Assembly: GCA_019244055.1 (NCBI GenBank)
Contig: JAFATG010000271.1
Location: forward strand, 1 to 64,000
Direction: 5' to 3'
From: Acidobacteriaceae bacterium
GTDB taxonomy: Bacteria; Acidobacteriota; Terriglobia; Bryobacterales; Bryobacteraceae
Length of the DNA stretch: 64,000 nucleotides
Part shown: piece by piece, positions 21,443-28,017 of the stretch
Layout of the letters: every line of letters begins with the position of its first letter
Numbering within the stretch: position 1 is the stretch's first letter
The notes under the pieces: model-generated
Told to the model about the DNA's origin: nothing
What the model saw: the letters and a program-made list of their open reading frames with translations, nothing else
Databases searched by the model: none
Program-made: the position numbers and the translations under genes

Positions 21443-21501
21443 GCCGCGGCGTGATTCACCCACATGCGCCATCGCTTTGTGACTGGCCGTCGGGTCTTTC
21501 C

Positions 21502-21550
21502 CCTTGACAGCTTAGGAAAGTCCCACTATACTCCTGATTAGCTTAGGAGT
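21502..21550 (+). promoter_or_regulatory. padR-permease promoter with palindromic operator
   Basis: TTGACA at 21504-21509 and TATACT at 21527-21532 are separated by exactly 17 bp, a near-consensus sigma-70 promoter. A 21-bp palindrome (ACTCCT-N9-AGGAGT, 21530-21550) overlaps the -10 box and contains the ribosome site AGGAG 5 nt before the padR ATG. It is well placed for autorepression by PadR. The same block recurs at 25228-25276 with 48 of 49 bases identical. Confidence 0.85.
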
Positions 21551-21554
21551 GTAA

Positions 21555-21896
21555 ATGTCCGGCCAAGCCCAACTCCTCCCAGGAACGCTCGACCTGCTTA
21601 TTCTGAAAGCCGTGTCTCTCGGCCCCCTTCATGGCTACGGCATCCTCTTGCGTATCGGGCAAATCTCTGAGCAAGCACTGCTGATCGAGCAGGGCGCGCT
21701 CTATCCCGCTTTGTTCCGTCTGGTGCGTCAGGGTCTTCTCAAAGCAAGCTGGGGTACATCGGAAAACAATCGCCGCGCCAAGTTCTACGAGCTCACCTCT
21801 CTCGGGCGCAAGCGTCTGCGCGAGGAAACCGATGGGTGGAACCGCCTTGCTACAGCAATTGCTTCTGCCCTTGCCGCTCAGCCCGAGGAAATATGA
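21555..21896 (+). CDS. PadR-family transcriptional regulator
   Basis: A 113-aa winged-helix repressor. The PadR N-terminal domain is complete: LLPGTLDLLILKAVSLGPLHGYGILLRI, then the recognition helix region QGALYPALFRLVRQGLLKASWG and the wing RRAKFYELTSLGRKRL. There is no long C-terminal effector helix, so it is the short PadR type that usually dimerises through its last helix. The TGA overlaps the ATG of the permease gene (ATGA), implying translational coupling. Likely represses its own operon through the palindrome over its promoter, and perhaps the second copy at 25.2 kb. Confidence 0.93.
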   Translation: MSGQAQLLPGTLDLLILKAVSLGPLHGYGILLRIGQISEQALLIEQGALYPALFRLVRQGLLKASWGTSENNRRAKFYELTSLGRKRLREETDGWNRLATAIASALAAQPEEI

Positions 21897-24547
21897 AGCT
21901 CTTGGCCTATTTTCGTTCTGTTGCGGCTAAGTTTTTCCGGCCGTCCGAGATCGAAGGCGACATGGAGGAGGAGCTTCGCTCGCACATTCAGCACCGCGCA
22001 GATGATCTCGAACGCTCCGGGCTAGATCGTGCCGAAGCGGAACGCCGCGCGCGCATCGAGTTCGGCGGCCATGCGCGCTTCAAGGAGGAATCTCGCGAAG
22101 CGCTCGGCGGCAATTTTATCGAGACTCTTAGCCAGGATGTTCGCCTCGCCGTCCGCATGCTGCGCAAATCCCCCAGCTTCACCGTCGCTGCCGTTTTGAC
22201 GCTGGCCCTAGCGATCGGCGCAAACGCCGTGGTGTTTGGGGTCTTGAATGGGCTGATCCTGCGCCCGCTGAATGTGCCTCAGCCCGAAAGCCTCTGGGGA
22301 ATCGAGCGCGGGAGCGGTAAAGCCGTGAATCAGTCCTATCCCGACTATCTCGATTTGCGCGATCGCAACCGCAGCTTTGATGGTCTGGCAGCTTATAACG
22401 TAACTTCGGTGGGGCTGGACACGGGCAATAACCCATCCGGCTCGTGGATTCTGGAAACGACGGGGAACTACTTCGACGTGCTCAGGATTCAGCCATATCT
22501 TGGCCGCTTCTTTCACGCTTCCGATGAGCATGGCCCGAACAGCGCTCCCTATATCGTGCTCACCTACGCTTATTGGCAGGCGCATTTTCAGGATGATCGC
22601 GGTGTTGTGGGCCGTGTTGTCCGGTTGAACAAGCATCCTTTTACCATCCTCGGTGTGGCGCCGCCTGAGTTCCGAGGGAGTCTGTTGTTTGCGGTTCCCG
22701 ATTTCTGGGTGCCAATAGTGAACCAGGAGCAGGTGGAGGGATCGTATGTGCTGAACGCGCGCGGAAATCGCGGCATTTTGATGGTATTAGGGCATCTGAA
22801 GGCGGGAGTTACTCCGGCACAGGCTATTTCCGATCTGAACTCAATTGGCGCCTATTTGGAAAGGAACTACCCCAAAGACGATGGTCAAATGACGTTTTCC
22901 TTAGCGCGTCCAGGTCTTTCCGGCGACTGGTTAGGAGCTCCGATACGGGCATTCCTTACGGGATTGATGCTGCTGGCGGGGTTAATTCTCGTGGCGGCAT
23001 GTGCCAATCTCGGTAGCCTGTTTGCGGCACGCGCCGCCGACCGTTCCCGCGAAGTTGCTCTGCGCCTCGCGCTGGGATCGGGCCGCGTCCGCATTCTCCG
23101 GGGACTCTTTAGCGAAGCCGTGCTGATTTCACTCGCCGGAGGCGCTGCCGGGCTATGGGGCAGCGTAGCGCTATTGCACGGGCTGAGCGTGTGGCGGCCG
23201 CTTCCAACAGCCCCTCTCAACGTGGCGGTGAACCCAGACGCAAAGGTCTATGGAGTCGCTTTGCTGTTAAGTTTAGCGAGTGGATTCCTCTTCGGCGCAG
23301 TCCCAGTGAGACAGGTGCTTCACACGGATCCATATGAGATCGTCAAGTCGGGATCAAGAACTACCGGCGGCCGGCGGATTACAGCCCGAGACCTATTGCT
23401 TGTAGTGCAAATTGCGATCTGTGCGGTACTAGTCACTTCTTCGATGGTTGCGGTGCGTGGACTGGCACGCTCGCTCGATAGCAAATTCGGTTTTGAACCG
23501 CGGAATGCAACGCTCGTAGAAACAGCTCTGAACATGGCCGGTTACAGCGGAGACAGCGTGCCCGCAATGCAAAAGCGTATGATCGAGGCTTTGGGAAAAA
23601 TTCCCGGTGTAAAGTCTGTGGGATCAGTTGATAGGCCACCGCTGTATTACGGTGCGAACGGCTCGAATGTCTTTACCGACAACACAGCAGATCTGAGGCC
23701 CTCGAATGCCGCTGCGGAAGCGATGACCTACAACATATCTCCCGAATACCTCGAGGCGGCGGGCACAGCCTTGCTCGCTGGAAGGGCCTTCACCTGGCAT
23801 GACGATAAGAATGCGCCGCGGGTGGCAGTAATCAACCAGGAGTTTGCACGCAAAATCTTTGGCTCTGCAACCAACGCCGTGGGCAAATATTACAAGATGC
23901 CGGATGGAACGCGCATCCAAGTCGTGGGCATTGCGGAAGACGGAAAATATGAGCACCTCGCCGAAGATCCAGAGCCGGCGATGTTTCTACCGATACAGCA
24001 GTCGCCGTCGACTCAGACAGTCCTTGTATTACGCTCGGAGGGTGATCCGGAGCGACTGACGGCAGCGATCCACCGCACAATGCGGGACTTGGACGCGGGA
24101 CTGCCCTTTGATATCAGAACGTGGAGCCAAGAACTGGACTCAGCTCTACTTGGTCCGCGCATGGCGACGATTTCACTGGGGGTGCTGGGCGCGATGGGCG
24201 CGATGCTGTCCATCACAGGCATCTTTGGAATGGCGGCCTATTCGGTTAGCAAGCGCCTCAAGGAGTTGGGAATTCGGATGGCGCTCGGCGCGCAGCGGAA
24301 GGAAGTGCTACAGGCCGCGTTGGGCCGGGCATTGAAACTGCTGGCTTTTGGTTCGGCGGCGGGATTGATTCTCGGGATTCTGGCGAGCCGCGTGCTCGCT
24401 TTCATCGTGTATCAGGCAACCCCCCGCGATCCGCTGGTCTTGACCGGTGTCGTTCTGGCGATGGCATGCTTCGGACTGCTCGCTACCTGGATTCCTGCGC
24501 AACGCGCGCTGTCGCTTGAACCTTCAACATTGCTGCGAGAAGAGTGA
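21893..24547 (+). CDS. ADOP-type duplicated FtsX/MacB permease, copy 1
   Basis: 884 aa from the ATG at 21893 that overlaps the padR stop. The N-terminal cytoplasmic helical segment (EGDMEEELRSHIQHRADDLERSGLDRAEAERRARIEFGG) is the hallmark of acidobacterial ADOP permeases. Then come a MacB periplasmic core, an FtsX unit (GLMLLAGLILVAACANLGSLFAARAADRSREVALRLALGSG), a second core and a second FtsX unit near the C-terminus (GAMGAMLSITGIFGMAAYSVSKR). No ATPase gene is adjacent. Probable role: efflux or mechanotransduction with an ATPase encoded elsewhere; substrate unknown. Closely related to copy 2 (25312-28017). Confidence 0.92.
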   Translation: MKLLAYFRSVAAKFFRPSEIEGDMEEELRSHIQHRADDLERSGLDRAEAERRARIEFGGHARFKEESREALGGNFIETLSQDVRLAVRMLRKSPSFTVAAVLTLALAIGANAVVFGVLNGLILRPLNVPQPESLWGIERGSGKAVNQSYPDYLDLRDRNRSFDGLAAYNVTSVGLDTGNNPSGSWILETTGNYFDVLRIQPYLGRFFHASDEHGPNSAPYIVLTYAYWQAHFQDDRGVVGRVVRLNKHPFTILGVAPPEFRGSLLFAVPDFWVPIVNQEQVEGSYVLNARGNRGILMVLGHLKAGVTPAQAISDLNSIGAYLERNYPKDDGQMTFSLARPGLSGDWLGAPIRAFLTGLMLLAGLILVAACANLGSLFAARAADRSREVALRLALGSGRVRILRGLFSEAVLISLAGGAAGLWGSVALLHGLSVWRPLPTAPLNVAVNPDAKVYGVALLLSLASGFLFGAVPVRQVLHTDPYEIVKSGSRTTGGRRITARDLLLVVQIAICAVLVTSSMVAVRGLARSLDSKFGFEPRNATLVETALNMAGYSGDSVPAMQKRMIEALGKIPGVKSVGSVDRPPLYYGANGSNVFTDNTADLRPSNAAAEAMTYNISPEYLEAAGTALLAGRAFTWHDDKNAPRVAVINQEFARKIFGSATNAVGKYYKMPDGTRIQVVGIAEDGKYEHLAEDPEPAMFLPIQQSPSTQTVLVLRSEGDPERLTAAIHRTMRDLDAGLPFDIRTWSQELDSALLGPRMATISLGVLGAMGAMLSITGIFGMAAYSVSKRLKELGIRMALGAQRKEVLQAALGRALKLLAFGSAAGLILGILASRVLAFIVYQATPRDPLVLTGVVLAMACFGLLATWIPAQRALSLEPSTLLREE

Positions 24548-24628: not shown

Positions 24629-24778
24629 GTGGGCAAAACTATTCGGCTCTTGCTATTGTTTGAGGGCATCGCCTTCATCGCCGCGAGCCTGACCCACTTC
24701 GGCGTGCTGATGCATGGATATGAGCACCGGCCGGCCGGGATGGCGGAGAGCATTATTGGGGTCATCCTTCTGATCGGT
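24629..24778 (+). pseudogene. 5' fragment of a small membrane-protein gene
   Basis: From a GTG at 24629 the frame reads a convincing two-helix membrane segment (RLLLLFEGIAFIAASLTHFG, then a GYEHRPAGMAESIIGVILLIG helix). After about 24778 the frame runs antisense into the SpoIIE remnant and the protein character is lost. The intact family, known to me only as small DoxX-like or hypothetical membrane proteins, is longer. I read this as a truncated gene fused end to end with another remnant. Confidence 0.55.
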
Positions 24779-25205
24779 TTCCAAATTCCAGGCCATCCGG
24801 ACTGGTTGCCTCCACCAGCCCATCGGTGTAGATAAGAGACGGTCGCCGGCTTCGAGCGAAGACTCCCCTTCGGGATAGGCCTGATTCGACTGCACACCAA
24901 GAAGGAGACCACCCTCACAGGATGGCAATAACCGTTGCGTTGCTTTCCGCCAGAGTACTGGCAGTGGGTGGCCTGCGGCGGAGTAACGCACTACTCGGCT
25001 TGCGTCGTCAAGATACGCGTAGACCGCTGTTGCGTACTGCTCCTTTGTTTGGCCACGAAGGATGGAATTTAAGGCCGCAATCACTTTGTTTGGCTGGTCC
25101 AGGTTGCTGCTATTGGAAGAGATTGCCACTTTCAGCATCGATGCGACAAGCGCTGAAGGCACACCATACCCAGTGACGTCAGCGATGCACTTCCGGTTGG
25201 TGGGA
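24775..25205 (-). pseudogene. Truncated, frameshifted SpoIIE-type PP2C phosphatase
   Basis: On the minus strand the sequence begins abruptly at about 25205 with IADVTGYGVPSALVASML (metal-binding motif III region) and continues through RYSAAGHPLPVLW and LEAGDRLL. It then needs a frame change to continue as IYTDGLVEATSPDGLEFG. All of the domain upstream of motif III (including the GGDYYD-type motif) and the C-terminal DD(I/L)T motif are missing. It cannot encode an active phosphatase. It sits between the two ADOP permease copies. Confidence 0.8.
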
Positions 25206-25227
25206 TTCGACCGAAAATGAATTCTCT

Positions 25228-25276
25228 CCTTGACAGCTTAGGAAAGTCGCACTATACTCCTGATTAGCTTAGGAGT
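25228..25276 (+). promoter_or_regulatory. Duplicated promoter and PadR-type operator before permease copy 2
   Basis: TTGACA 25230-25235, 17-bp spacer, TATACT 25253-25258, and the same 21-bp palindrome (25256-25276) as upstream of padR. Only one base in 49 differs between the two sites. Homology stops just upstream of TTGACA, so the duplicated block starts at the promoter. Confidence 0.85.
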
Positions 25277-25279
25277 CCA

Positions 25280-25315
25280 ATGTCCGGGCAAATCGAGCAA
25301 CCGGAGGAATTATGA
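25280..25315 (+). pseudogene. Collapsed padR (11-codon leader)
   Basis: Directly after the duplicated operator, ATG opens a frame reading MSGQIEQPEEL and stop. The first four residues equal the start of PadR (MSGQ) and the last ones match its end (PEE), and the TGA overlaps the permease ATG just as in the intact copy. An internal deletion of about 300 nt therefore removed the regulator but kept its translation start, stop and coupling. It may work as a leader peptide that keeps the GGAGG ribosome site translated through. Confidence 0.8.
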
Positions 25316-28017
25316 AGCTCCCGGCCTATTTTCGTTCTCTTGCTAGTAAGTTTCTCCACGCTTCCGATCTCGATCACGATATGGAGGAGGAGCTTTGCTC
25401 CCATATCCAGCACCGCGCCGACGATCTCGAACGCTCCGGCCTGGACCGTGGAGAGGCACAACGCCGTGCGCGCATCGAATTCGGGGGCCATGTGCGCTTC
25501 AAAGAGGAATCCCGCGAAGCGCTCGGCGGCCACTTTATAGAAACTCTGATGCAGGATATGCGTTTCAGCGTGCGGGTGCTGCGCAAATCGCCCGGATTCA
25601 CAACCACGGCGGTGATTACGTTGACACTGGCAATCGGGGCAAATGCAGTCGTTTTCGGTGTATTGAACGGGCTGATCCTCCGCCCATTGAACCTGCCTCA
25701 CCCCGAGAGCTTGTACGGGATCGAGCGCTCGGACGACGACGATCCAGTGCAATCGTATCCGGATTACCTCGATCTTCGCGATCGAAATCGCAGCTTCGAG
25801 AGTCTGGCAGCGTATCGAATCATCGAAGCTGGGCTGGATGCGGGCAACAACGCCTCGAGGGTCTTCGGCTATGAAGTGAGCGGCAACTACTTCGATACAC
25901 TGGGCGTTCAGCCGTATCTTGGCCGCTTTTTCCACGCCTCGGATGAACATGGCCCGAACAGCGCTCCCTACATCGTGCTCTCGCATGCGTATTGGCACGC
26001 CCATTTTCAGGATGACCGTGGAGTTGTGGGCCGAGTTGTTCTGCTCAATAGGCATCCGTTCACGATCGTAGGCGTCGCCCCGGCTGGATTCCATGGAACT
26101 TTATTGTTTGCCTTTCCCGACTTCTTCTTGCCAATGGTGAACGAGGAGCAGGTGGAGGGAACAAACGTCCTGAACGCGCGCGGAATTAAGTGGATTTATC
26201 TGGCGTTGGGACATCTCAAAGCGGGCGTCACCCCCGCGCAGGCCACTGCCGATCTGAACTCGATTGCGTCCTACTTTCAGAAGACCTATCCGAAAGAGCA
26301 TGGAAAAATGAGCTACTCGTTGTCCCGCCCCAGCCTGTATGGCGATTTCCTTGGCCGTCGCGTACAGATGTTTCTTGCGGGATTGATGTTGCTCGCGGGA
26401 TTGATTCTGCTGGCGGCGTGCGCCAACCTAGGCAGCCTGTTTGCCGCGCGCGCGTCTGATCGAACGCGCGAAGTTGCTTTGCGGCTCGCGCTCGGAGCGA
26501 AACGCTCGCGCATTCTGCGTACGCTATTCACCGAAGCTGCGCTGATCTCCCTGGCTGGAGGCGCCCTCGGGTTATGGGGCAGCGTAGCGCTGTTGCGCGG
26601 CTTGAGTTTTTGGCAGCCGCTACCTCGATATCCGATATCTGTGCCCGTGAACCCGGACGCAAACGTGTATGGCGCGGCTTTGATATTGGCCCTGGTGAGT
26701 GGAATCCTATTCGGGATGGTTCCAGTTCGTCAGGTGCTCAGGACCGATCCATACGAGGTCGTCAAAGCGGGATCGACGGCGACGGTGAGCCGGCGGATTA
26801 CGGTGCGCGACCTGTTGCTGGTGGTCCAAATTGCGATCTGTGGAGTGCTGGTTACGTCATCGATGGTTGCGGTGCGAGGTCTGGTCCGTTCGCTGCACAG
26901 CAATTTGGGTTTCGATCCACGGAACGTGATGATCGTCAACACCGATCTCAGCATGGCGGGCTATAGCGGAGAAAGAGTACAGCAAATGCAAAAGCGAATG
27001 CTGGATGCGATGCGGAGAATTCCTGGTGTAGAATCCGTCGGATTGATCGACTGGCCACCACTTATTAGCGGCGCTTACGACCAATCTGAGGTCTTTACAG
27101 ACCAGGCCATCGGTCTAAGCCCAGCCGATGCCGCGGCTTCACCCTTCTCGTTTCGAATCTCACCGGAATACTTCCAGGCGGCGGGCACAGCGTTGCTAGC
27201 CGGCAGGACGTTCTCGTGGCATGACGACAAGAATGCGCCGCGCGTGGCCGTTGTAAATCGGGAATTTGCAATGAAAGTGTTCGGGTCGGCGGCAAGCGCG
27301 CTGGGTCATTTCTACAAGCTGCACGATGGAACGCGCATCCAGGTGGTGGGCATCGTGGAAAGCGGCAAATATAAGGGACTCACCGACGATGCAGCGCCGG
27401 CGATGTTTCTTCCCATTCTGCAATCGCCAACGCTGGCGACAAATCTGGTAGTCCGCTACTTTACTGAACCGCGCACAATGGCCGCCAGTCGGCCTGCGCG
27501 CTTCAATCGCGATCCCCGGCAACTGGCGGGAGCCATAAAGAATACATTGCGGGATCTCGATCGCGGGCTCCCTTCTTACATCCAAACGTGGAGCCAACAA
27601 CTGGACGACTTCGCGTTGTTTCCTTCGCATGTAGCGACGGTATCGCTGGGTGTGCTGGGCATGATGGGCGCTATGCTCTCGATCACCGGCATCTTCGGAA
27701 TGGCGGCGTACTCAGTGAGCAGGCGGTTGAAGGAGTTGGGAATTCGTATAGCCCTCGGCGCGCAGCATAAGGAAGTGTTACAGGCAGCGTTGGGGCGGGC
27801 TTTGAAATTGCTCGCTTTTGGTTCTGCGGCTGGTTTGATTCTAGGAATTCTGGCGAGTCGGGTGCTCGCTCATATCGTGTATCAGGCTACGCCACGCGAT
27901 CCGTTGGTATTGGCGGGAGTTGTTGTCGCTATGGCCTCTCTGGGGCTGGTCGCGACTTGGATTCCAGCGCAACGCGCGCTCTCGCTTGATGCTTCCACAC
28001 TGCTGCGCCAGGAGTGA
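25312..28017 (+). CDS. ADOP-type duplicated FtsX/MacB permease, copy 2
   Basis: A 901-aa paralogue of the 21893-24547 gene, with the same N-terminal DMEEELCSHIQHRADDLERSGLDRGEAQRRARIEFGG helix, two MacB cores and two FtsX units. Differences concentrate in the periplasmic cores, and the second core carries an extra segment near RYFTEPRTMAASRPARFN. The ATG overlaps the stop of the collapsed padR. It probably shares regulation with copy 1 through the duplicated operator. Diverged substrate recognition is plausible given the core differences; no ATPase is encoded nearby. Confidence 0.92.
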   Translation: MKLPAYFRSLASKFLHASDLDHDMEEELCSHIQHRADDLERSGLDRGEAQRRARIEFGGHVRFKEESREALGGHFIETLMQDMRFSVRVLRKSPGFTTTAVITLTLAIGANAVVFGVLNGLILRPLNLPHPESLYGIERSDDDDPVQSYPDYLDLRDRNRSFESLAAYRIIEAGLDAGNNASRVFGYEVSGNYFDTLGVQPYLGRFFHASDEHGPNSAPYIVLSHAYWHAHFQDDRGVVGRVVLLNRHPFTIVGVAPAGFHGTLLFAFPDFFLPMVNEEQVEGTNVLNARGIKWIYLALGHLKAGVTPAQATADLNSIASYFQKTYPKEHGKMSYSLSRPSLYGDFLGRRVQMFLAGLMLLAGLILLAACANLGSLFAARASDRTREVALRLALGAKRSRILRTLFTEAALISLAGGALGLWGSVALLRGLSFWQPLPRYPISVPVNPDANVYGAALILALVSGILFGMVPVRQVLRTDPYEVVKAGSTATVSRRITVRDLLLVVQIAICGVLVTSSMVAVRGLVRSLHSNLGFDPRNVMIVNTDLSMAGYSGERVQQMQKRMLDAMRRIPGVESVGLIDWPPLISGAYDQSEVFTDQAIGLSPADAAASPFSFRISPEYFQAAGTALLAGRTFSWHDDKNAPRVAVVNREFAMKVFGSAASALGHFYKLHDGTRIQVVGIVESGKYKGLTDDAAPAMFLPILQSPTLATNLVVRYFTEPRTMAASRPARFNRDPRQLAGAIKNTLRDLDRGLPSYIQTWSQQLDDFALFPSHVATVSLGVLGMMGAMLSITGIFGMAAYSVSRRLKELGIRIALGAQHKEVLQAALGRALKLLAFGSAAGLILGILASRVLAHIVYQATPRDPLVLAGVVVAMASLGLVATWIPAQRALSLDASTLLRQE

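Follow-up and report, generated by a model that had tools for sequence, protein, structure and literature searches.

Results

We analysed a duplicated regulator–permease module in a soil Acidobacterium (Acidobacteriaceae bacterium, assembly GCA_019244055.1, here G000), with a focus on the promoter block in front of its second permease gene. The window, i.e. the whole stretch under study, comprises positions 1–64,000 of contig JAFATG010000271.1. It carries a padR gene followed by an ADOP permease gene (copy 1) and, further downstream, a second ADOP permease gene (copy 2) which is preceded by a near-copy of the padR promoter but only by a remnant of padR itself (Table 1). The encoded PadR scores 134 bits against the curated cut-off of 101.8 for padR_acidobact (TIGR03433). 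Both permeases exceed the cut-off of 622 bits for TIGR03434 (765 and 742 bits), and in each of them PF12704 and PF02687 both occur twice, corresponding to two MacB_PCD/FtsX halves.

A first-pass annotation had reported that positions 25228–25276 match the padR promoter (21502–21550) at 48 of 49 positions, which was reproduced by our base-by-base alignment. It had delimited the feature as 25228–25315 and described one palindrome. This range is correct, but the functional block begins 3 nt earlier, at 25225, where a second palindrome has its left arm (TCTCCT); over the extended block (25225–25276 compared to 21499–21550), 50 of 52 positions are identical. Alignment of relatives revealed two conserved palindromes of one type within the block, 31 nt or about three helical turns apart. 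The first, O1 (TCTCCT-N9-AGGA(G/A)A), covers the −35 element and the second, O2 (ACTCCT-N9-AGGAGT), covers the −10 element. In both copies the two palindromes fully overlap a near-consensus promoter, TTGACA-17-TATACT, with 11 of 12 matches to the sigma-70 hexamers. At padR, the palindromic operator therefore lies across the regulator's own promoter, as is characteristic of a PadR autorepressor regulon, and the right arm of O2 (AGGAG) would also fit the role of the padR Shine-Dalgarno site.

Table 1. Features of the two modules and related operator loci
Feature	Position	Strand	Remarks
padR promoter/operator block	21499–21550	+	O1 21499–21519; −35 TTGACA 21504–21509; −10 TATACT 21527–21532; O2 21530–21550
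padR	21555–21896	+	113 aa, acidobacterial PadR-family regulator (TIGR03433); orthologues 86–96% identical behind the same operator in relatives
Permease copy 1	21893–24547	+	ADOP duplicated permease (TIGR03434); ATGA overlap with padR
SpoIIE-type phosphatase remnant	24653–25220	−	PF07228, E 2e-26
Orphan promoter/operator block, copy 2	25225–25276	+	O1 25225–25245 over −35 (25230–25235); O2 25256–25276 over −10 (25253–25258)
Mini-ORF, padR remnant	25280–25315	+	MSGQIEQPEEL; first 4 and last ~5 padR codons, 102 codons deleted in frame
Permease copy 2	25312–28017	+	ADOP (TIGR03434), intact, 901 aa
Third operator of the same class (L126)	G000:C329:3912–3962		Directly before a padR-less ADOP permease
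padR-less operator and permease loci in relatives			G061, G245, G237 (twice), G145/G156/G100, G152, G101, G085, G075

The permeases have diverged far more than their promoters. They share 73% identity at both the nucleotide and the protein level, and their fourfold-degenerate sites differ at 53%, compared to 2 of 52 positions in the operator block. The clear divergence noted in the first-pass annotation is thereby put into numbers. A very recent duplication with equally conserved flanks, which it had named as the finding that would undermine its reading, is ruled out by the fourfold-site divergence; flanks and permeases are deeply diverged. At the overall identity of the permeases, the probability of a 50/52 match is below 1e-3 (3e-4 at 78% and 9e-4 at 80% identity), and such a match is far less likely still at fourfold-site identity. 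In a free permease tree, copy 1 groups with its orthologue, the padR-linked permease of G166 (support 100/99), and a sister relationship of copies 1 and 2 was rejected (p-AU 0.0019). This tree does not settle where copy 2 belongs, and its transfer between lineages is possible. Despite the non-sister permeases, the two G000 operators are each other's closest match: the copy 2 operator is nearest to the padR operator of its own genome (96%), followed by those of G157 (92%) and G166 (87%). The permeases are old and their operators have been held together.

The padR gene of the copy 2 module survives as an 11-codon open reading frame (mini-ORF), ATGTCCGGGCAAATCGAGCAACCGGAGGAATTATGA, whose start, stop and ATGA overlap with the permease start (25312–25315) are as described in the first pass. 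Since it begins with the padR start, MSGQ, and its end, CAACCGGAGGAATTATGA, matches the 3′ termini of padR genes that are intact in relatives, such as CAACCGGAGGAAGTATGA in G094, the mini-ORF represents padR after an in-frame loss of 102 codons. What remains of the 3′ end includes GGAGGA (25303–25308), likely the Shine-Dalgarno-like ribosome-binding site of the copy 2 permease. Overall, the mini-ORF looks like a relic or a coupling device. The reading frame of the SpoIIE-type remnant upstream of copy 2 breaks off beside the copy 2 operator, at its upstream edge, which suggests a rearrangement junction.

To survey the genome (6.2 Mb), we used a model, R2, built from 16 padR-linked operators which all stem from other genomes. 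Reported at E-values up to 10, the scan returned four sites, three of them strong. The top site was that of copy 2 (57.9 bits, E 6e-15), followed by the padR promoter (54.3 bits) and a site on C329 (39.7 bits) directly before a third, padR-less ADOP permease; the fourth and last match was the C320 padR promoter (19.0 bits). The copy 2 operator thus comes nearer to the family consensus than does that of padR itself. One alternative is a generic strong promoter: the block would have no specificity for PadR and would be kept for constitutive expression of both copies, and the 11 of 12 hexamer matches would suit this. However, the palindrome arms beyond the hexamers are conserved as well, and strong operator matches in G000 stand only before padR or permease genes. 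Moreover, the genome harbours some 50 padR_acidobact-like genes and over 130 ADOP-like matches, and the other padR genes examined (n=29) have different promoter sequences which share the position but not the palindrome; the operator is therefore a specific feature of this PadR class. We regard the generic promoter as very improbable.

Also improbable, and even more so, is that copy 2 is a decaying pseudo-module with its operator as a passive relic. It does adjoin a truncated SpoIIE-domain gene, and a decaying operator–padR relic exists in G094, but copy 2 encodes an intact permease of 901 aa, whose 73% protein identity, set against fourfold divergence near saturation, indicates purifying selection, and the copy 2 operator is the one closer to consensus. 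The C4 paralogue (63% protein identity) was rejected as a regulon member, being without the prefix domain and without the operator. The relic in G094 (L172, on contig C4 of that genome) consists of an operator and only the first ~20 padR codons, with no permease. Elsewhere in G000, a padR-less ADOP permease has upstream sequence resembling the operator that goes with a different class of padR (L046 on C225 and L016 on C299; 23 nt, 87%, E 0.001); shuffled controls average 0.1 such matches, compared to 3 observed in all.

We scanned 237 genomes of the family and 257 of the order and read the loci in full; in these relatives, the operator mostly precedes padR and an ADOP permease. In at least eight other lineages, it stands directly before a permease without padR (Table 1). 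Operator and permease are contiguous at these loci, so the missing padR does not stem from a gap in the assembly. The same operator thus occurs at further genes without a linked regulator, namely copy 2 and C329 in G000 and those of the further genomes, as expected of a regulon. In two genera (g55 and g5), the operator also stands before genes whose secreted products share N-terminal repeats (L138, L142, L144 and L147 in g55; L162 and L166 in g5), and the one product that was tested carries a Soli_cterm domain (TIGR03437); therefore, the regulon is not confined to permeases. All orphan genomes except G075 carry a padR with a related operator elsewhere, and the orphan permease of G101 is 61% identical to a G208 permease that still has its padR. 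Orphan operators are closer to the resident padR operator than in permuted assignments (P 0.002–0.005; 0.014 without G000), in a small set with some phylogenetically related rows. In G212 (L201, on C32), two related ADOP permeases stand in tandem, 33 nt apart and with no promoter block between them, which is another way of adding a second permease.

The element kept at every orphan locus is the operator. Two loci in relatives retain a padR reduced in frame and ending at the permease start, those of G061 (34 codons, MSSSILIELQGEAAYWSQLAES..., with a PadR-like C-terminal helix) and of G245, from another family (17 codons, MPKPADRSPQAPNPGEA). One of the two orphans of G237 (= palsa_139) keeps only a padR 3′ remnant, and a mini-ORF is absent from the orphan loci of C329, G152, G145/G156/G100 and G075. 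The mini-ORF is therefore not essential, and its start, stop and ATGA junction need not have been selected as such. The intact start, frame and junction at copy 2 and the in-frame mini-ORFs of G061 and G245 could instead point to a selected regulatory leader peptide, acting by attenuation or as a translational switch, with the promoter match being secondary. Attenuation was rejected, since there is no terminator-like site between leader and gene and the reading frames overlap by ATGA. As the mini-ORFs differ in length and sequence, are missing at several loci, and as a retained frame and ribosome-binding site are to be expected after a deletion leaving the permease translated, we consider a leader peptide quite unlikely. 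The persistence of in-frame mini-ORFs probably reflects the harm to permease translation from any deletion that disrupts the frame or takes out the ribosome-binding site.

Discussion

Our comparison makes it probable that PadR acts through matched operators as a repressor both of its own operon and, in trans, of permease copy 2. Binding, repression and release by a ligand are what we infer from the anatomy of the blocks, the age of the paralogues, the conservation of the operator and its recurrence. The block at 25225–25276 would be a complete promoter with two candidate operators for this PadR, whose dimers on O1 (CTCCT-N9-AGGA, −35) and O2 (ACTCCT-N9-AGGAGT, −10) would shut out RNA polymerase and silence both its own operon and copy 2 until a ligand releases PadR. 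Copy 2 would then be an old paralogous padR–permease module in which an internal, in-frame deletion took out padR except for its first codons and its 3′ end with the permease ribosome-binding site, and the constraint to remain under the resident PadR would have kept its operator matched. Trans-repression of paralogous permeases, as proposed in the first-pass annotation and supported at the sequence level by independent padR-less loci in relatives, seems the most economical reading, and the sites point to one repressor over several scattered permeases.

Several observations weigh against this reading. The C329 operator and that of the second G237 orphan are not nearest to the padR operator of their own genome; the C329 site is about equally similar to the C320 padR operator, and its regulator is therefore ambiguous. 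Most of the genomes are metagenome-assembled. Furthermore, the 9-bp spacer between O1 and O2 is identical at 8 of 9 positions between the copies although it varies among relatives, which selection on the palindromes does not account for and gene conversion would. A recent short-tract conversion, rather than long selection, might thus have put the padR promoter block onto copy 2, which may still bind PadR. The two copies share a strand at a distance of 3.4 kb, and the permease tree dates their divergence before the G166 split, yet the operators are near-identical. On the other hand, the identical tract stops at the operator edges, with unrelated sequence upstream of O1 and an indel in the 4-nt spacer between O2 and ATG (GTAA at padR, CCA at copy 2), and in other lineages the orphan operators have been conserved although they are not near-identical to a donor. 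We consider such a conversion rather unlikely as the whole explanation; it could have produced part of the near-identity, notably in the spacer.

A padR_acidobact gene (TIGR03433) beside an ADOP permease (TIGR03434) is a known pair, found here likewise as an operon joined by ATGA. The present case differs in that candidate sites for one PadR also occur at padR-less permeases, and a search of the literature on the regulation of PadR and ADOP in Acidobacteria turned up no description of an operator or trans target for the pair. The cdPadR1 of Clostridioides difficile binds its own promoter at two inverted repeats, and its predicted motif also occurs elsewhere in the genome (PMC5050560). We likewise find, from sequence alone, two palindromes in the padR promoter and the motif at further sites. 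In contrast to cdPadR1, the half-sites are CTCCT/AGGAG with N9, instead of the classical PadR box ATGT-N8-ACAT (as in PMC5050560), they cover −35, −10 and the Shine-Dalgarno sequence, and the candidate targets are ADOP permeases. LmrR of Lactococcus is a PadR-family repressor of the efflux transporter lmrCD and of itself (PMC4534193); its target is an ABC transporter, whereas those proposed here are ADOP permeases, including paralogues outside the padR operon.

For a genome with about 50 padR genes and more than 100 ADOP permeases, the operator provides a testable wiring rule. Several intermediate stages between a duplicated regulator–target module and a trans-regulated target are visible, a process which is usually only inferred. 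Our preferred reading includes that the loss of padR with retention of its operator is a recurrent way to build a small regulon. It is an evenly balanced question whether deletions have repeatedly stripped padR–ADOP modules of padR but not of the operator, turning an autoregulated duplicate into a trans-regulated paralogue whose operator co-evolves with the resident PadR, as a general and reconstructible route of regulon growth. Across relatives, PadR is 86–96% identical and the linked permeases about 60–79% (L130, L132, L133, L197–L199 and others), as if several targets held the regulator in place.
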